Of a DNA stretch of 24,853 bases, positions 827 through 23,915 are shown piece after piece (the first letter of the stretch is position 1; the number at the start of each line of letters is the position of its first letter). Made by a program: the position numbers and the translations under genes. The notes below the pieces were generated by a model. It saw only the letters and a list, made by a program, of their open reading frames with translations, was not told the origin of the DNA and did no database searches. The DNA comes from a virus, in the IMG/VR virus record IMGVR_UViG_3300036715_002609, positions 1 through 24,853 of that record. One strand, given 5' to 3'.

Positions 827-1618
827 ATGATTAAAATTAATAAGACAATAAATGATATAAATGCGTACACTTATTTATTGAAGTTTATTATAAATAATAA
901 CATATATTATTATGGTGTTCGTTATGGTAATATTAAATTAAATATTACACCTGAAAATGATTTATTTATTAAATATTTTTCTTCATCAAAATCAGTAAAA
1001 AATCTACTAAGTGATAATATATTTCCATTTGAGATTATTATACATAAGACATTTAATTCTATAAAAGATGCTTGTGAATTTGAAGTATCTTTTTTAACAA
1101 AGGTTGATGCAAAAAATAGATTTGATTTCCTGAATCAAACTAATAACTTTGATAATTCATTACCTTGTAACAAAGGTAGAAAAATAAATCAATTAATCAA
1201 AGAAAAAATGAGTATTTCTCAATCTAAATGGCAATCCTCTGATGAATATAAACTCTATAGAAGTAAACAAATGAAAACTAAATGGCAAGATATAGATTAC
1301 AAAGAGTATATGCAGGATAAAAATAATAAATTTTGGAATAGTGATAGAGGAATTGAATTTATAAAAAATAGAAAACCTGCATGGACTGGTCTTACACATA
1401 GTGAAGAAACAAAATCTAAAATGAGTATATCTGCTAAAATACATTGAGCTAATATTGATTGTAAAGATAGAGCAATGAAAAGAAAACGTTATGAATGTAT
1501 CATATGTGGTAAAAATAACTTAGATGGAGGTAATTTTAACTCACATATGATAACAAAACATAATTGGTCAAAAGAAGAATGTGTAGTATTTAAGAAAGAT
1601 TATAATACTCTTCTATAA
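827..1618 (+). pseudogene. GIY-YIG homing endonuclease with in-frame TGA, inserted in NAMPT
   Basis: This reads as a GIY-YIG family homing endonuclease lying antisense between the two NAMPT halves. The N-terminal YYYGVRYGN matches the variant GIY-YIG core seen in phage enzymes, and DACEFEVSFL carries the likely catalytic Glu. A helix rich in K/S/E (GLTHSEETKSKMS) is a NUMOD3-like DNA-binding motif. The frame stops at TGA (1445-1447) after 206 codons but continues for 56 codons with a Cys2-His2-type finger (CIICG...HMITKH) and stops at 1616-1618. The tail looks homologous to the finger at the start of the endonuclease at 22349-23335, so the TGA probably truncates a longer enzyme. The nuclease core is intact and the 206-aa product could still be active. 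It overlaps the NAMPT N-half by 29 nt. Confidence 0.8.
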
Positions 1619-2420
1619 TATCATCTAACATACCTTTTTTTATTAAATTTTCAAAATATCCAACATTTGCACTTGTCACTGCATGTTCTGTTGCAATTAC
1701 AGAGTTGATACAAGGTTCAACTTCATCATAGTACATTCTTGCTGCAGGAATTACTGGTAAAGTATCAGAACCTCTTGAACCAGTTGCAAAACCTAAACCA
1801 GAGTTAACAATTGCAGATTTACCACCCATACCTCTCATAGAGAAGTCATGTAATTGGAAGTCTAAGAAACCAATTGCTTCTGGATTAGTTTTCATAATCC
1901 ATTTTTTACCTAATTGTCTTAAAGAACGTACAAAGGTAGCTGATGTTTGACCTTGCCAAAACTCAGCAGATAAGATAGTTTCTAAATAGTTTACAATCCA
2001 GTCAGCAACATAACCATTTAATGGTTGAGTATTTACAATAGTAAAAGAAGGGATTTTGTAAGGAGTTACTGTTCCTTCTTCTAAAGATTTGATTCTAACA
2101 GGTAAGTAACCTAATTTGTGTAATTCTTTGAAGTGAGTTACATCATAAGGTTGAGATAAACCTAACATCATTGTCATATCTTCACCAAACTTATCAATTT
2201 CTTGAATAGGTCTGTTAAAGAAATTAACATTCCAATCATGATACATTTGTCTAACAAGTTTTTGTTGTCCAAATTGAACAACTTCACCATCATTAGGACA
2301 ATTACTATGTTTACCACTTCTTGGTGTGTTGTTTGAGTACATTAAAGTACTTCCTACAGGTAACATTGGTTTGTGTCCTGTTTTATATACGTCTGTCCAA
2401 TAAATTTCTAAAAAGTTCAT
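1590..2420 (-). CDS. nampt: Nicotinamide phosphoribosyltransferase, N-terminal half (split gene)
   Basis: This encodes the N-terminal half (276 aa) of NAMPT. Recognisable family motifs are YWTDVYKTGHKPMLP (family DSYKVTHYKQYPP), VNYLETILSAEFW (family TNWIETILVQSWY), QLHDFSMRG (family KLHDFGYRG, with catalytic Asp) and ATEHAV (family AAEHST, with the His phosphorylated during catalysis). The protein ends a few dozen residues after that His, in a region that is a variable loop in relatives, and its last codons overlap the endonuclease's 3' end. The ATG begins one base after the stop of the upstream PRPP synthetase gene, implying translational coupling and shared transcription. The reading frame is clean. 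With 253 residues from the other half the total is about 529, slightly longer than the usual 470-500. Confidence 0.92.
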   Translation of the reverse strand: MNFLEIYWTDVYKTGHKPMLPVGSTLMYSNNTPRSGKHSNCPNDGEVVQFGQQKLVRQMYHDWNVNFFNRPIQEIDKFGEDMTMMLGLSQPYDVTHFKELHKLGYLPVRIKSLEEGTVTPYKIPSFTIVNTQPLNGYVADWIVNYLETILSAEFWQGQTSATFVRSLRQLGKKWIMKTNPEAIGFLDFQLHDFSMRGMGGKSAIVNSGLGFATGSRGSDTLPVIPAARMYYDEVEPCINSVIATEHAVTSANVGYFENLIKKGMLDDIIEEYYNLS

Positions 2421-6403: not shown

Positions 6404-7171
6404 ATGAAGAAATGTAAAATGTGTGAGATTGAAAAAGATTTTTCTGAATTTAGGCCATCTAAAAGACATAGTGATGGATATCTAAAAGAGTGTCAAGAGT
6501 GCATGTCTATAAAGAGAAGAGAGGATTATCTTAATAATTATGATATTCGTAGAGCTTCCAATAAAAAGTATTATGAGAATAATAAAGAAAAAATATTATT
6601 AAATTCAAATGTTGATAAAGAAAAGAAAAAAATAACCGATGCTAAGTATAGAAATAGTAATAAAGAGAAACTTAAAGAAAGAAGTAAAAAATATTATGAA
6701 AATAATAAAGAAAAAATAAAAAACAAATCAAAAGAGTACTATAAAAATAATAAAGAAAAAATAAATACACCTACTGATAGAAAACGTGAATTGAAAAGAC
6801 AATCTTATCAAAAAAGAAAACATCAATATGTTTGGAGAGAAATTTTAAGAAAAACTATAACACAATTAAAACTAAATAAGAATCAAACTACATTGGAAAT
6901 TTTAGGATATAGTTATGATATATTAAAATCAAATATAGAATCTAAGTTTAAAGAAGGTATGTCTTGGGAAAACCATGGTAATTGGCATGTTGATCATATA
7001 ATACCAATCTCTTTATTTAGAGAGGGTATAGATGCTAGTATAGTCAATAGATTAGATAATCTAAGACCATTATGGTCTAATGATAATTTAGTAAGACAGA
7101 ATAAAATTGATGATTTAGAAGATGAGTATAAATATTTATTAGAAGATTTTAAAGAATATCTTGTTAGTTAA
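6404..7171 (+). CDS. HNH homing endonuclease
   Basis: This is a free-standing HNH endonuclease of 255 aa. The N-terminus has a zinc knuckle (CKMCEIEKDFSEF ... CQECM). Residues about 50-125 are repeats of the K-x-Y-Y-E-N-N-K-E-K-I type, a lysine-rich helical segment typical of DNA-binding tails in these enzymes. The HNH core is WHVDHIIPISLF followed by NRLDNLRPLWSNDNLVRQNK, with the paired His and the distal Asn residues present. The frame is intact. The neighbouring genes (ClpP on the minus strand, the metalloprotease on the plus strand) look whole, so this one is intergenic rather than gene-splitting. Confidence 0.92.
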   Translation: MKKCKMCEIEKDFSEFRPSKRHSDGYLKECQECMSIKRREDYLNNYDIRRASNKKYYENNKEKILLNSNVDKEKKKITDAKYRNSNKEKLKERSKKYYENNKEKIKNKSKEYYKNNKEKINTPTDRKRELKRQSYQKRKHQYVWREILRKTITQLKLNKNQTTLEILGYSYDILKSNIESKFKEGMSWENHGNWHVDHIIPISLFREGIDASIVNRLDNLRPLWSNDNLVRQNKIDDLEDEYKYLLEDFKEYLVS

Positions 7172-12599: not shown

Positions 12600-13169
12600 A
12601 TGATAACAGAAAAAACAATTTCAGAATTCCTATCAGAAGAGTATAAAGAATTTGCAATGTATTCAATTGAGGGAAGAGCAATCCCTTCGGTGGTTGATGG
12701 TTTCAAACCAACACAGAGAAAAATTATACACATTTCCAACCAAATATGGAAGACAGGAAGTGAGAAAAACTTAAAAGTGTTCCAGTTAGCAGGTAAAGTT
12801 GCATCTGATGCTTTTTATCATCATGGTAATTGCTTAGAATATGATACTGAAATAATTACTGCAGATGGTGTAATTATCAAAATTGGTGAATGGTGTGAAA
12901 AATACACTGATTTAAAATTAGATTTAATTTCATATGATGAGAATAGATGTGAGTATGTGAGTGGTGTTGGACATTCCCCAAGAGTAGGTACTATAACTAA
13001 TGAAGAATATGAGATAGAAATGGAGGATGGTTCTATTTTTAAATGTACTAATAATCATCCATTCTACACACAAAGAGGTTGGGTAAAGGCCAAGGATTTA
13101 ACAGAACAAGATGATATTAAAAGTTTTATTGATTACCATGATGATAAAATTATATCCAAATATATTTAA
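12600..13169 (+). CDS. 52: Type II topoisomerase medium subunit (gp52-like), N-extein plus split-intein N-half
   Basis: Residues 1-77 match the start of T4 gp52 / GyrA: AMYSIEGRAIPSVVDGFKPTQRK (T4 AMYTVENRAIPNMIDGFKPVQR) up to AFYHHGN. Cys78 (TGC at 12831) then begins an intein N-half of 112 residues: block A CLEYDTEIITADG and block B CTNNHPFYTQRGWVKAKDL, with the family TxxH replaced by TNNH and the following hydrophobic segment present. The frame ends at 13167-13169 shortly after block B, where natural split inteins end. The complementary half and C-extein are at 13637-14869. Spliced length is 77 + 370 = 447 aa, close to T4 gp52 (442). Cys as first residue and Asn-Ser at the other junction are splicing-competent. 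Confidence 0.92.
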   Translation: MITEKTISEFLSEEYKEFAMYSIEGRAIPSVVDGFKPTQRKIIHISNQIWKTGSEKNLKVFQLAGKVASDAFYHHGNCLEYDTEIITADGVIIKIGEWCEKYTDLKLDLISYDENRCEYVSGVGHSPRVGTITNEEYEIEMEDGSIFKCTNNHPFYTQRGWVKAKDLTEQDDIKSFIDYHDDKIISKYI

Positions 13170-13640
13170 AGATAAATGGATTTTAACACATAATAAATTT
13201 ATCAATGAATTAGGATATGATCCAAGATTACATGTTTTTGGGAATGCATCAAAAGAATCATTAAAAGTATTTGAACCTTTAATTGATTGGTGTCTAAATA
13301 ATGATATTTTAAATGATGATATTTTTATAGTATATCTAATAAAAAAGAATATTTTATTAGAAGTGAAGAAAGTGTATATTTTTATGACTTTGTTATAAAA
13401 AGTAAAAAAATAATAATAGAATTTAATGGTGTTGTATTTCATGCTAAAAGGGAACAACTCAATAAAAATGAATGGTTCAATCCTTTTACTAAAGAAAATG
13501 CAATAGATAATATAAATAGAACAAAGATTAAATATGATGTTGCTAAAAATAAAGGCTTTGATATTTTAGAAATATGGAGTGATGAAAATCATTGTGTGAA
13601 TGTAGAATTATGTAAAAAATTTATAAAAGATAAGTTATGA
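13138..13640 (+). pseudogene. Vsr-like (EDxHD-type) homing endonuclease between the intein halves, frameshifted
   Basis: A start at 13138 or 13141 opens a frame reading KDKWILTHNKFINELGYDP that stops at 13398. After one missing T in the T5 run at 13322-13326 it continues in another frame: YDFVIKSKKIIIEFNGVVFH and KGFDILEIWSDE, ending at TGA 13638-13640. This aligns by eye with the terminase-associated endonuclease (YDFVDIDKKKIIEYNGDEYH ... GYNILYIWD). The acidic residue after NG is Val here, so besides the frameshift the active site looks damaged. The TGA overlaps the ATG of the intein C-half (ATGA), and the start overlaps the intein N-half, the layout expected of a gene once translated in series. 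Confidence 0.78.
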
Positions 13641-14869
13641 AAATAAAATCAATAAAAAAAAGAATATTAGATGAACCTAAAAAATTTTACGATATAACAG
13701 TGGATAAATATCATAATTTTTTAATAGGTAGTAAATCTATGATAATTACACACAATTCAAGTCTTGAAAATACGATTGTTACTATGGCACAAAGATTCAA
13801 AAACAATGCTGCTTTATTAGAAGAAGATGGACAATTTGGTTCATTACGTTCACCACAACCTGGTGCGGCAAGATATATTGGTACTAAACTAAGTAATAAC
13901 TTTAGACTTATTTACAAAGACTTTGACTTATTAGATTATAAAGAAGAAGAAGGTGAGTCAATTGAACCAAGATATTTTTTACCAATCATACCAACAGTAT
14001 TATTAAATGGGTCAAGTGGTATTGCAGTAGGTTTTGCTTCTAATGTGTTAAACAGAGAGATTAAGAGTATAATTGACAGTTGTGGTAGAGTTTTAATGGG
14101 TAAAGGTCCAGGTGTCATTAAACCCTCTCTAAATGAATTTACAGGTGAGTTCATACAAGACAAAGAAAATAGTAAGAGATGGATAATAAGAGGTAGATTT
14201 CAAAAAACAAATACTACAACTATTAAGATAATGGAGTTACCACCATCAATGACTTATGAAAAGTATGAAGAGTTATTGGATAAATTGTGTGATAGTAAAG
14301 ATATTGTATCTTATGATGATAATTGTAAAGATAATATTGATTATACAATAAAGTTTAACAGATCTGTTTTAGAGAAGTTAGATGATGAGAAGATAATTAA
14401 ACTTCTTAAATTAGAAGAATCATCTACTGAAATATTCTCAACACTTGATGAGTTTGGTAAGTTAAAAATATTTGAAACATCAGAAGAGATTATAGAATAC
14501 TTTGTTAATTTTAGATTGACTTACTATTATAAGAGAAAAGATTTTCAATTAGCTAAATTAAATAGAGATTTAAAGATATTGAGTAATAGAGGAAGATTTA
14601 TTAAAGCTATACTTGATGAGAAACTTAAAATCAATAATGTTTCAAAAGATGAAATTATTGTTGGTATAGAAGAATTGAAGTTAGAAAAGATAGATGATTC
14701 ATTTGATTACTTATTAAGAATGTCTATCTACTCTCTAACAAAAGAACTATTTGAAAAGATGAAAAAGGACTTCACTGATAAAAAGGTTGAAATAAAGACT
14801 TTGGAAGAGACTGATCCTAAAGATATGTATCTATTGGACTTGAGTGAATTAAAAAAGAAATTCAAATAA
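13637..14869 (+). CDS. 52: Split-intein C-half plus C-extein of type II topoisomerase medium subunit
   Basis: Residues 1-40 are a classic split-intein C-half: FYDITVDKYHNFLI (block F) and MIITHN|S (block G, with terminal Asn and +1 Ser). From Ser41 the chain resumes topoisomerase: ENTIVTMAQRF, EDGQFGSLRSPQPGAARYIG (with the DNA-cleaving Tyr in AARY), YFLPIIPTVLLNGSSGIAVGF (T4 FYLPIIPTVLLNGVSGIATGY) and MELPPSMTYEKYEE. It ends at the length of T4 gp52 with a lysine-rich tail. The ATG overlaps the upstream endonuclease stop by 4 nt. Trans-splicing with the 12600 product should rebuild the full subunit; the insertion point is the conserved HG(N/D)|S near the active-site region. The ATPase partner subunit is not in this window. 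Confidence 0.93.
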   Translation: MKIKSIKKRILDEPKKFYDITVDKYHNFLIGSKSMIITHNSSLENTIVTMAQRFKNNAALLEEDGQFGSLRSPQPGAARYIGTKLSNNFRLIYKDFDLLDYKEEEGESIEPRYFLPIIPTVLLNGSSGIAVGFASNVLNREIKSIIDSCGRVLMGKGPGVIKPSLNEFTGEFIQDKENSKRWIIRGRFQKTNTTTIKIMELPPSMTYEKYEELLDKLCDSKDIVSYDDNCKDNIDYTIKFNRSVLEKLDDEKIIKLLKLEESSTEIFSTLDEFGKLKIFETSEEIIEYFVNFRLTYYYKRKDFQLAKLNRDLKILSNRGRFIKAILDEKLKINNVSKDEIIVGIEELKLEKIDDSFDYLLRMSIYSLTKELFEKMKKDFTDKKVEIKTLEETDPKDMYLLDLSELKKKFK

Positions 14870-20114: not shown

Positions 20115-22373
20115 TTAGTATTGGTTATTACTATTAAACCAGTTAATACCATTACCTATATTATATGATTTCTGTCTATTAATAACTTGTTTTCTTACTC
20201 TTAATAATTGACCATAATCAACACTCTCAACATAGTCAAGGTTTTTCAAACAATCATTTACATAATTTTTAAACTCTGTAGTTGATATTAAGTCTAAGTA
20301 ATCTTGACACATTTCTCTAAAATCATTCTTTTGAAAAGCAGAAGTTGCATTTACAATAGTCATAACAGTATCATCATGTCCAACATCTGCAGCATATCTT
20401 GTATTACCTGATGTAGTAGTATGTTTAACAAATGTTGTTATCTCTCTAATAGTATCTTCATTGGTAATTGTAAATCCTTTAGACATCATTAAATCTTGAT
20501 AATCTTTAACTAATAAGTTTTTATTCTCACCAACTTTAAGACCAACTTTTTCATCTGTTGCATCAGCTCTATGTTTATATCTAAAAAATACTGATGAGCC
20601 ATAGTTATTATTACCTTCTAAAACATGTGGCATCTCAGCCAATAATGTATTACCATAGTTATTTAACTCTAATACAATCTTAACATTTTCAGGATTAAGA
20701 TATTCAAATACTAACATATATAATAACTCTGATAATTGTTTAACGGATACAAAGTTACTTCTGAATATCCCTACTTGTTCAAGTCTAAAAAAATCTATTA
20801 TAGACTTATAAGATGGTTTCTGTATTTCAATTAATTCTTTTGATTTCTCTGCTACTTTAAATATGTTTATGATTGAATAATCTTGTCCTAATCCTTCTGA
20901 TATATCCACAGATAGAATAAACTTATATTCATTTCTATTTATAGGACTAAATATTTCATCATCATCAATCCATTTTAAATCACTATAACTAAATTTCAAT
21001 TTATTTTCAAATTCTAATATTTCTTCAAACTTATAGTTTTTCTTACCTTTTAATAACTCATCAATAATTGCTTCATTTAATAATGATTTACTTGAGTTAA
21101 TAAATCTCAAACCATATTCTTGGTTAAATGCATCTTCACCACCAATATCTTTAATAGCTTCTTCTTTCCAAGTTGTCATCTCACCAATTGATCTTAAAGG
21201 TACTTCAAATCCTTTAGTGTTAATGAAGTTAAGATTCTTAACATCTTCATCAGTACACATTTCATTGTTATAAACTTCAATAATATCTTTTTGAAAGTCA
21301 ACATTCCAATACATTTTAGATTTTGTTACATCTTCTGGGAATACTTCTCTTACTTGTTCAAGTATTTGTTCTTTAGTTACTCCATTTTCATATAATCTAT
21401 GTGGGTTAAGTCTTATGTAAGTTACAAATCTACCTGGTACTTGATGCCAGTAAACCCTCATTGCTTTGTAGTTATTTTTAAGTGGATCACCTTCTGGTCT
21501 TTCTGCATCAGTTAATAACTTATGGAATAAGTTCATACCATTTGGTGTTGATGTAATAATAATTTTTGAGTTTTGTACTGCTGCTGTTGTTGGATAAGCT
21601 GCAGTATAGTAAGGTTCAATAATATTTGAAGGAATGTGTGCAAACTCATCTAAGTAAAGTACATCAATGGTAAAACCAATTGCTGGTGTTTTAGACCTTG
21701 CTGATGTTTTTATTCTACAACCATTTTCAAATGTTAATGATTTTTGATTCCAAGTTTTAATACCTGGTTTTAAGAAGAAAGGTAATAATGAGTAGATAGA
21801 TTTAATTTTATCTACAATCTCTACTGCAGTATCTCCTTTATTAGCAACAATCATTATATTCTTATCATTACTAAATAAAATTGTGTGTAACATGAAGATT
21901 GATGCTGAGATTGTATTGTGTGATAAAATACCATTTGTATAAAATCTATGGTTTGGATGATCAACTGTTAAATCAAACATTGAAAGTTTGTAATTATTTC
22001 TGAATATTTTAATTACCTTAGATATACCAATATCAGTATATAAATAATCACTTATTACCACATCTTTTATGAAAATTTCATTTAAGTTACTATCAAAGAC
22101 AATGTGTTTATCTGCACATTCTAAATAATAACCATTTTCCAATTCAACTCTAAATACATTGAATGGTTGTGTTATGTGCATTTCTGATACTGATTCAAAT
22201 CCGGTATCGGTCATTACTTTAATATTATCCAATTTAATAGAAGATAATATTTTCTTGGAAATATCATTCTGATCAAGTTTGATATTTCGATATTGATAAG
22301 TTTCTATTAATTCAATTAATTTATATAAACCATTAATTATGATACTCTTTATTCCTTTAAGAATTCTAAACAT
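20115..22373 (-). CDS. 17: Split-intein C-half plus C-extein of terminase large subunit
   Basis: Residues 1-153 are an unusually long intein C-half containing block B (ELENGYYLECADKHIVF), block F (MFDLTVDHPNHRFYTNG) and block G (ILSHN|T). From Thr154 the chain is terminase: the rest of the P-loop (TISASIF), Walker B (VLYLDEFAHI), the T4-like motor coupling segment IIITSTPNGMNLFH, and nuclease-domain acidic residues in FILSVDISEGLGQDYS, ELNNYGN and VGHDDTV. With the 119-aa N-extein the mature motor would be about 718 aa (T4 gp17 is 610). The start MFRILKG lies 25 nt inside the endonuclease gene. MFR starts and +1 Thr after SHN are shared with the AceL-TerL split intein I remember. Confidence 0.93.
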   Translation of the reverse strand: MFRILKGIKSIIINGLYKLIELIETYQYRNIKLDQNDISKKILSSIKLDNIKVMTDTGFESVSEMHITQPFNVFRVELENGYYLECADKHIVFDSNLNEIFIKDVVISDYLYTDIGISKVIKIFRNNYKLSMFDLTVDHPNHRFYTNGILSHNTISASIFMLHTILFSNDKNIMIVANKGDTAVEIVDKIKSIYSLLPFFLKPGIKTWNQKSLTFENGCRIKTSARSKTPAIGFTIDVLYLDEFAHIPSNIIEPYYTAAYPTTAAVQNSKIIITSTPNGMNLFHKLLTDAERPEGDPLKNNYKAMRVYWHQVPGRFVTYIRLNPHRLYENGVTKEQILEQVREVFPEDVTKSKMYWNVDFQKDIIEVYNNEMCTDEDVKNLNFINTKGFEVPLRSIGEMTTWKEEAIKDIGGEDAFNQEYGLRFINSSKSLLNEAIIDELLKGKKNYKFEEILEFENKLKFSYSDLKWIDDDEIFSPINRNEYKFILSVDISEGLGQDYSIINIFKVAEKSKELIEIQKPSYKSIIDFFRLEQVGIFRSNFVSVKQLSELLYMLVFEYLNPENVKIVLELNNYGNTLLAEMPHVLEGNNNYGSSVFFRYKHRADATDEKVGLKVGENKNLLVKDYQDLMMSKGFTITNEDTIREITTFVKHTTTSGNTRYAADVGHDDTVMTIVNATSAFQKNDFREMCQDYLDLISTTEFKNYVNDCLKNLDYVESVDYGQLLRVRKQVINRQKSYNIGNGINWFNSNNQY

Positions 22374-23335
22374 TTTTCAATAATATTATTTTTTTTTATT
22401 TCTGAAACTGTTCTATATTCAGAATCCCATATGTATAGTATGTTATATCCATTTTCGATGGCCACATTTTTCTTTTTGTCATCTTTAGACCATATATCAG
22501 AAGCTAATATATTTTTCCTGAATGGGTGTGGTGTGTCATTTGGTTTAAATTTGTTTGGATTTGCATGGTATTCATCTCCATTATACTCAATTATCTTCTT
22601 CTTATCAATATCAACAAAATCATATATCCATATACCACCATTATCTCTATTTAGACTAAATTCACCATTATTAGTTGCATATCTATAATTACCATCAAAT
22701 CTTCTTTTTATTTCATTAAAAAGAACTTGACTTATACCAGAATATCCACATTTCATATTACCATTGGTATTTAGTGAATTTTGCCACTTAATTTGTCTAT
22801 TGTTATATATCTTAATACCTTCTATATCACCAAACTTCTCTATACATTTTTCTAATGTAAATGTTCTTTGTCTTTCATATAGCATCTTCTTTGCTACTTC
22901 TTCATTATATCCTTTATCTAAATAATATTGTATTGTAGTATCTGAAATTCTATCTTTGATTGCTAGTTTTGCAAAACTACTTATATGTTCCTCAACATTT
23001 TCCATACCATTATATTTTATAAAATCTTTAGAAAATGGACTTCTACTTTTTCGTTCTAGTTCAGTTGTATTACTTCTGTGATTAGGATTTTTTTCACCTT
23101 TAACCTTATCCGAAAACATTTTTTTATATTTATCATCTTTCATGTGTTTACCACTATTTATGGTAGTTTTCTCTTTATCTGATAATGCCATTATTGGTGC
23201 ACCAGGGTATAACTTCTTATATTCATCAGTTGTCATATTATCATGTTTGAATTTTAAGTGTTTACCATATATTCTTTTACATTGTTCGCCACATATTCTA
23301 CAAGTTACCATTTCTATATTATCATTAATTTCCAT
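22349..23335 (-). CDS. Vsr-like (EDxHD-type) homing endonuclease between terminase intein halves
   Basis: The 328-aa product is intact. It begins with a zinc finger (TCRICGEQCKRIYGKHLKFK, a C2H2 arrangement with a MucR/Ros-like helix DEYKKLYPGAP), followed by NUMOD-like helices and a C-terminal nuclease domain: WIYDFVDIDKKKIIEYNGDE, YHANPNK and GYNILYIWDSEYR. This is the architecture of the endonucleases reported in 'fractured genes' between split-intein halves. The Asp and His around NGDEYH are present, unlike in the topoisomerase copy (NGVVFH). It overlaps the intein C-half start by 25 nt, consistent with translational coupling, and probably cleaves uninterrupted terL alleles. Confidence 0.9.
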   Translation of the reverse strand: MEINDNIEMVTCRICGEQCKRIYGKHLKFKHDNMTTDEYKKLYPGAPIMALSDKEKTTINSGKHMKDDKYKKMFSDKVKGEKNPNHRSNTTELERKSRSPFSKDFIKYNGMENVEEHISSFAKLAIKDRISDTTIQYYLDKGYNEEVAKKMLYERQRTFTLEKCIEKFGDIEGIKIYNNRQIKWQNSLNTNGNMKCGYSGISQVLFNEIKRRFDGNYRYATNNGEFSLNRDNGGIWIYDFVDIDKKKIIEYNGDEYHANPNKFKPNDTPHPFRKNILASDIWSKDDKKKNVAIENGYNILYIWDSEYRTVSEIKKNNIIEKCLEFLKE

Positions 23336-23390
23336 ATATAAATTTTATTTTATTTATGTGTTAAAAAGTTATGGGTTCCTTTCAAGTTGG

Positions 23391-23915
23391 TTATGTGAGT
23401 AAATCTATTAATCTATAAATAACAAACTTAATATAATCATATGTATTTTTATTTGGATTTAATATATGTAATAATTTATACATTGGTATATTTACTTCCT
23501 TTTCATTACCGAAATCATCAATTAATAAACATAACACCTTGGTAGTCAATACATTACATTTACCCACCTGCCTACTTGCCATTAAAATGTTGAATCTACT
23601 ATTAACAAAGTTATCTAATATTTCTTTTTGGTAATCTCTTAATTGTATATCACCAACTGATCCATCTTCTCTTTTTACTCTACAATATTTTTCGGTAAAG
23701 TAGTGAATATCAAGTGCACACTTAACATACTCTTGTTGTTCTTCTGGAGACATCTTAAAAGATACACCTGCTCTTCTTAGTCCTACTTCACTTTTTAACC
23801 ATGGGTTCTGAAATCTCTTTATTACAATACCATCATTAATCTTTTCTGTTGCTTCATCTACAAACTTTGTAGTGAATATCATTTGTTTTTCTACCACTTC
23901 TGCCATAACGGACAT
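23391..23915 (-). CDS. 17: Terminase large subunit N-extein plus split-intein N-half
   Basis: Residues 1-119 match the start of T4-type terminase ATPase: a leader, QLRDYQKEILDNFVNSRFNI, and LMASRQVGK, which is the Walker A loop cut right before its Thr (T4 SRQLGKT). Cys120 starts an intein N-half of 55 residues (CNVLTTKVLCLLIDDFGNEK...) ending at 23391. Block B is absent from this half and present in the C-half, so the split is earlier in the fold than in gp41- or NrdJ-type split inteins and resembles the atypical AceL-TerL arrangement, though its N-half is 25 residues and this one 55. The start Met (MSVMAEV) at 23913-23915 has a second ATG three codons in. A 55-nt gap with nothing recognisable separates it from the endonuclease. 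Confidence 0.9.
   Translation of the reverse strand: MSVMAEVVEKQMIFTTKFVDEATEKINDGIVIKRFQNPWLKSEVGLRRAGVSFKMSPEEQQEYVKCALDIHYFTEKYCRVKREDGSVGDIQLRDYQKEILDNFVNSRFNILMASRQVGKCNVLTTKVLCLLIDDFGNEKEVNIPMYKLLHILNPNKNTYDYIKFVIYRLIDLLT

Follow-up and report, generated by a model that had tools for sequence, protein, structure and literature searches.

A phage large terminase gene fractured within its P-loop by an atypically split intein, with a probable EDxHD-type endonuclease gene in the break

Dassa et al. (2009, NAR 37:2560) reportedly described fractured genes, in which two gene halves carrying intein pieces surround a free-standing gene for an EDxHD endonuclease, as the family was subsequently named. 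Atypically split inteins include VidaL and the AceL intein, the latter inserted close to where the ATPase domain of the phage large terminase (TerL) ends. For the AceL- and GOS-TerL inteins, fragments of 25/104 and 37/115 amino acids (aa) with Cys1/Cys+1 or Ser1/Cys+1 have been reported (PMC11766414), while the atypically split PolB16 OarG intein consists of 15/168 aa (PMC10189870). Here, we describe a split TerL gene in the virus record IMGVR_UViG_3300036715_002609 of IMG/VR, whose complete sequence of 24,853 bases is referred to as the window. TerL is encoded on the minus strand as two open reading frames (ORFs; 23391-23915(-), 174 aa, and 20115-22373(-), 752 aa) and is broken in the P-loop between Lys and Thr (GK/T, the slash marking the break) by the two pieces of an intein, with an endonuclease gene between them (Table 1).

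The first nucleotide of the intein (23558) opens the Cys1 codon and its last (21915) closes the codon of the terminal Asn, in agreement to the base with the interval 21915-23558 proposed in an earlier reading of the nucleotide sequence, hereafter the original prediction. The N-half of TerL reads LMASRQVGK up to the break and continues into a tail of 55 aa that starts with Cys and is closed by a stop codon at 23391-23393, while the C-half opens with 153 aa ending in GILSHN, followed by Thr and the remaining 599 aa of TerL. Joining of the exteins yields SRQVGK-TISAS, an intact P-loop that matches intein-free relatives, which bears out the proposed split inside this motif. The absence of block B from the N-piece, the presence of blocks B, F and G in the C-piece and an uninterrupted 328-aa endonuclease ORF that overlaps the start of the C-half by 25 bp were also recovered as predicted. 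Among protein families, the C-half matches Terminase_6N of Pfam (1.2e-13) and, weakly, Intein_splicing, as well as intein_Cterm of NCBIfam (17.2 bits, over the cut-off of 15.6).

The identity of the intein is supported by profile comparison, conserved residues and structure prediction. A profile of the C-piece (alignment A2) matches the solved inteins VidaL (4e-10), gp41-1 (3e-9) and CatC (1e-8), in line with the kinship to known inteins that the original prediction had anticipated. Conserved in this alignment are A87, D88 and H90 of block B, D134 of block F and H152-N153 of block G; the window intein has Ala (A87) where Thr is usual in block B and retains the entire class 1 residue set, i.e. 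Cys1, H90, D134, H152-N153 and Thr+1. For fold prediction, the relative L118 was used (L numbers designate the individual loci), in which N- and C-piece lie in one frame with a short gap; stops were read through, with a 28-residue artificial linker between the pieces, and contiguous relatives were included in the alignment. The resulting chain of 237 residues was modelled with a predicted local distance difference test score (pLDDT) of 88.7 and a predicted template modelling score (pTM) of 0.82, with low confidence in the linker only, and both pieces are well folded into the single HINT fold that the original prediction had envisaged for the joined halves. Searches of the model against the PDB returned VidaL as top match (target template modelling (TM) score 0.85, E 9e-10), and inteins fill the best matches. 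In the model, the end of the N-piece and the start of the C-piece both form long helices; the tails of the two pieces were aligned (MAFFT) with contiguous relatives as bridging rows. Judged by the fold predicted for its relative, the conserved residues and the split before block B, the window element qualifies as an atypically split class 1 intein.

The arrangement is widespread. With the C-half, the endonuclease and a profile of the C-piece as queries, well over 100 loci were retrieved, among them 58 distinct fractured N/C pairs on separate contigs after removal of duplicates. All share the order of the parts and the split before block B, with a short N-piece (median 55 aa, 42-72) and a long C-piece (median 149 aa, 143-212) in separate genes, and such recurrence excludes a chance fracture. 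The lengths of 55/153 aa are therefore the norm of a large family and no peculiarity of the window contig. Cys1 is present in every pair, and Ser-His-Asn and Thr+1 are each conserved in 57/58; a full endonuclease occupies the gap in 39/58. At the same GK/T site, five relatives (L105, L147, L155, L179, L189) carry contiguous inteins of 192-203 aa, in which the counterparts of the N-piece end helix and the C-piece start helix are adjacent. The fragments are long because the split falls inside this helical insertion, with a helix on either side of the break. That one helix might be a copy of the other, duplicated over the fracture, was considered since the helices are alike, and rejected: in the contiguous relatives both exist separately and side by side, which makes a duplication unnecessary. 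The ratio of nonsynonymous to synonymous substitution rates (dN/dS) is mostly 0.02-0.4 for the N- and C-intein pieces, with one value of 0.70, which indicates that both are under selection. Furthermore, the distances of N- and C-pieces are correlated after TerL is taken into account (partial r 0.36, 0/1000 permutations), as expected for partner pieces. On the TerL tree, the intein state changes 13 times or more, a number unsuited as a rate since the sampling is biased by intein-based queries.

The nuclease domain of the endonuclease in the break resembles Vsr and I-Bth0305I. Foldseek returned 1vsr (Vsr, probability 1.00) and 3r3p (I-Bth0305I, probability 0.96) with target TM scores of 0.56-0.57 and E values of 0.01-0.07, and 3r3p was also the best, albeit weak, match of the sequence profile. 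E225, D239, E250 and H257 are invariant in alignment A1 and D285 is found in window-type members; these residues are candidates for the E, D, H and D of an EDxHD active site. NCBIfam holds no family name for this protein. These similarities of fold and sequence suggest that it likely belongs to the EDxHD homing endonucleases, as originally predicted, with moderate support. In a subset of loci (L007, L015, L019, L020, L023, L093, L120), the N-terminal part is the same and the nuclease domain has apparently been swapped (LPDFFIPSLNLILEFDGTYYHRD...), for what looks like another PD-(D/E)XK-like domain.

Several states of the locus can be compared directly. The contiguous L179 and the fractured L188 agree to 78.6% up to the point between the two helices and to 73.7% beyond it; at this point L188 has 1,143 bp, the endonuclease cassette, where L179 has 5 bp. 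With this cassette L188 acquires a stop, which overlaps the start codon of the endonuclease as ATGA, and its C-half gains a new ATG. Two relatives, L038 and L029, have no insert and an exact junction; over the first 250 residues of the TerL C-half they share 99.6% and 97.6% identity with the window, and their flanks are 92-94% identical in DNA, pointing to a recent gain or loss of the insert in the window lineage. The fracture persists without an endonuclease in L002, L118, L129, L150, L151, L174, L178 and L182; in L002 and L174 a deletion has left only the endonuclease tail as a scar, with the two intein pieces still open. Some relatives have a gap of merely tens of bases (18-80 nt) or halves that overlap in other frames, and elsewhere the gap holds unrelated antisense endonuclease-like genes (L022, L131), an inverted relative of the endonuclease (L169) or other genes (L026, L083, L088). 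L116 and L142 likewise have unrelated or inverted endonucleases or non-endonuclease genes in a gap reminiscent of a landing site. The widest separation occurs in LR756501 (L191), a 735-kb genome published by Al-Shayeb et al. 2020, in whose main text the word intein does not appear (PMC7162821). A distance of 12.4 kb separates its N-half (623,865-624,410) from its C-half (609,226-611,493). Thirteen further ORFs of 120 aa or more occupy the interval, where a radical-SAM gene was identified and no endonuclease recognised. The cassette also appears to spread horizontally: its dS is far below that of TerL in the pairs L006/L002, L018/L025 and L007/L156, which fits transfer between phages. In L018/L025, for instance, intein pieces and endonuclease have dS values of 0.18-0.29 and TerL-C one of 1.6. 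The N-piece and endonuclease of L007/L156 are recent (dS 0.16) and the C-piece is older (1.1), so that recombination within the element is indicated as well. Separately, the TerL intein of the Delftia phage PhiW-14 (L100, 2467-4743) contains two in-frame stops, both in the A-B loop, but lacks an endonuclease, and the annotated TerL start of this phage lies downstream of the intein.

We consider it highly likely that these observations reflect a mobile intein at the Lys/Thr site of the TerL P-loop whose coding sequence is divided in two. A gene for a free-standing endonuclease of the EDxHD/Vsr type would have entered the loop between the two helices of a pre-existing insertion in a contiguous intein and brought with it the stop of the N-half and the new start of the C-half. 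Three proteins would then be made, namely TerL-N with the 55-aa piece, the endonuclease, and the 153-aa piece with TerL-C. The intein pieces are predicted to meet, possibly through their helices, to fold into one HINT domain and to splice by the class 1 route using Cys1, Thr+1 and the terminal His-Asn, releasing a TerL of 718 aa with a restored P-loop. TerL is thus very probably assembled by protein trans-splicing; the original prediction that it functions only thereafter fits the modelled HINT fold, the conserved residues and the empty and contiguous alleles, with splicing itself being what we infer from them. The probable target of the endonuclease is the P-loop of intein-free TerL alleles, where repair of the cut would copy the whole cassette (homing). 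More tentatively, the two helices at the break might constitute a natural docking module, such that a contiguous intein with a helical-hairpin insertion was pre-adapted to a cut between its helices and one endonuclease insertion could convert it at once from splicing in cis to splicing in trans. The fracture would then be hard to reverse and might serve as a landing pad. Endonucleases could disappear from it, be exchanged or inverted, or be accompanied by other genes, and the halves could drift many kilobases apart, to the extent seen in the 735-kb genome. This extension is possible, and we advance it with reserve.

Three points weigh against the preferred explanation. The fold model is that of a relative read through stops with an artificial linker; the endonuclease resembles EDxHD structures weakly in sequence (E 0.066) and moderately in fold; and the C-pieces of LR756500 (L093) and LR756501 (L094) end in SSQ/T and NLN/T, so that intein activity is uncertain in both, the usual His-Asn being missing. 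Such members without a canonical terminal His or Asn, few as they are, could speak for a dead intein with TerL as a pseudogene, or for halves that act as two unspliced subunits. However, both pieces are open, with low dN/dS and invariant catalytic residues, and the window holds no second TerL copy. TerL is essential in tailed phages, and unspliced halves would have no intact ATP site because the break parts the Lys of the P-loop from its Thr; a dead or unspliced TerL is accordingly judged improbable. Even less probable is repair at the RNA level, by a self-splicing intron or by ribosomal bypass or shift across the gap, which would produce TerL as one chain. Although terL of other huge gut phages is split by group I introns (PMC12363816) and the window halves happen to share a frame, no Rfam intron family, and hence no group I ribozyme core in the insert, was matched in the window at E values up to 1. 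In addition, conserved intein residues bound the gap at both ends, relatives have gaps of 18-80 nt or halves overlapping in other frames, and processing of RNA in cis is hard to imagine in LR756501 with its distant halves and the genes between them.

A different question is whether the gene was already fractured when the endonuclease moved in. Compact fractured loci without any endonuclease (L178 with a gap of 18 nt, L150, L182) are compatible with this reverse order, which is nevertheless unlikely, since L179 and L188 differ by exactly the cassette that supplies stop and start, and the endonuclease tails of L002 and L174 record deletion. An assembly artefact might be suspected from the far end of the contig (~24691-24853), which consists of 23S rRNA and is probably chimeric, but the same layout in 58 distinct pairs and in the genomes LR756500 and LR756501 refutes this and leaves it virtually no likelihood. 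Insertion of an endonuclease gene into a contiguous intein, followed by trans-splicing of the separated pieces, remains the favoured account of the locus.

Table 1. Positions of the parts of the split TerL locus in the window.
Feature	Position	Strand	Basis
TerL N-extein, 119 aa, ending in ...SRQVGK of the P-loop	23559..23915	-	TerL-N 70-86% identical in closer relatives; PHROG 5989 terminase, E 4e-19
N-intein piece, 55 aa (Cys1, block A, C-terminal helix), and stop	23391..23558	-	Cys1 in 58/58 distinct pairs
N-piece end helix, ~residues 38-54	23397..23447	-	Helix 39-56 of the L118 model, placed by alignment A3; coordinates inferred
Endonuclease gene, free-standing, 328 aa, intact	22349..23335	-	ORF without stops
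Ros/MucR-like zinc-finger region, endonuclease residues 8-43	23207..23314	-	Pfam ROS_MUCR, E 0.0013, below cut-off; PDB 2jsp, E 0.16
Vsr/EDxHD-like nuclease domain (likely), ~residues 217-303	22427..22687	-	Alignments A1, A10; 3r3p profile, E 0.066; Foldseek 1vsr, 3r3p
Overlap of endonuclease end and C-half start, 25 bp	22349..22373	-	Overlap in many relatives too
C-intein piece, 153 aa, blocks B, F, G, GILSHN end	21915..22373	-	Profile matches to VidaL, gp41-1, CatC
C-piece start helix, ~residues 3-27	22293..22367	-	Helix 87-111 of the L118 model; in aligned relatives; coordinates inferred
Block B, CADKH (invariant A87, D88, H90)	22104..22118	-	Alignment A2
Blocks F and G, MFD...YTNGILSHN	21915..21980	-	Alignment A2; NCBIfam intein_Cterm over cut-off
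TerL C-extein, 599 aa, starting with Thr+1 of the P-loop, and stop	20115..21914	-	68-87% identical in closer relatives

Further elements were noted elsewhere in the window. A second fractured gene, at 12600-14869 (+), codes for subunit A of a DNA topoisomerase II/IV. Its intein is split canonically, with an N-piece that includes block B and ends at 13169 and a C-piece that starts at 13637 and ends in THN/S; a frameshifted remnant of an EDxHD-like endonuclease lies between the halves. A nicotinamide phosphoribosyltransferase is encoded in two pieces (1-870 and 1590-2420 (-)) around an antisense homing endonuclease at 827-1447 (+) (phrog_314, NUMOD3), and Rfam revealed no intron at this split. 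The endonuclease VII/HNH-like gene at 6404-7171 (+) is probably another free-standing homing endonuclease. The rRNA fragment at the contig end, of bacterial type and on the plus strand, is 81-88% identical to E. coli; a chimeric end is probable because L038 and L029 have other sequence at this position.

The origin of split inteins from contiguous ones is usually only inferred. At the TerL P-loop, intein-free, contiguous, fractured, endonuclease-lost and far-separated states exist at one site, some of them between close relatives, which renders the steps directly testable. Many huge phages probably rely on protein trans-splicing for their packaging motor, and phage surveys based on TerL can miss or split such genes. 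For protein engineers, the family provides many natural pairs of split inteins with helices at the split (Cys1/Thr+1, ~55/150 aa) to try.

Among known systems, the AceL- and GOS-TerL inteins, together with the consensus Cat (PDB 6DSL), are phage TerL split inteins that are likewise cut between blocks A and B, with a short N-piece and a C-piece containing blocks B, F and G; CatC is matched by the C-piece profile at E 1e-8. The window intein differs from AceL/GOS-TerL in its Cys1/Thr+1 residues, its GK/T site in the P-loop, its helix-flanked split and its lengths, 55/153 aa (family median 55/149) lying outside the range of 25-37 aa for N- and 104-115 aa for C-pieces. The original prediction regarded split position and lengths as distinct. 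With respect to position, this applies to the location inside a helical insertion, whereas the A-B interval is that of AceL/GOS-TerL and the split is common to dozens of phages; the lengths are indeed unlike the AceL/GOS fragments but ordinary within their own family. VidaL (PDB 6VGV), the best match by both profile and fold, differs in that its solved chain has only 145 residues, a length that would leave no room for two long split helices. PolB16 OarG shares the short N-piece and long C-piece but has a DNA polymerase host and Ser1/Ser+1, and the TerL1-a inteins reside in mycobacteriophage Terminase_1 proteins and, in the available part of their description, are not presented as split. The same conversion of a contiguous TerL intein is seen in isolates, the Campylobacter phages CP220 (L098, contiguous) and F379 (L103, fractured, 30/111 aa), whose flanks are 95-97% identical and in which the endonuclease gene lies in the block A-B interval; this pair differs from the window family in a slightly shifted P-loop position (RQ/S), a shorter loop and another endonuclease. 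With two halves carrying split-intein pieces around a free-standing endonuclease gene, the layout is that of the fractured genes of Dassa et al., as the original prediction had recognised, with the differences that the split precedes block B between helices and that stages before and after fracture are seen directly. The window system thus works like the AceL/GOS-TerL split inteins combined with the fractured genes of Dassa et al.: its kind is known, and its build is unusual.

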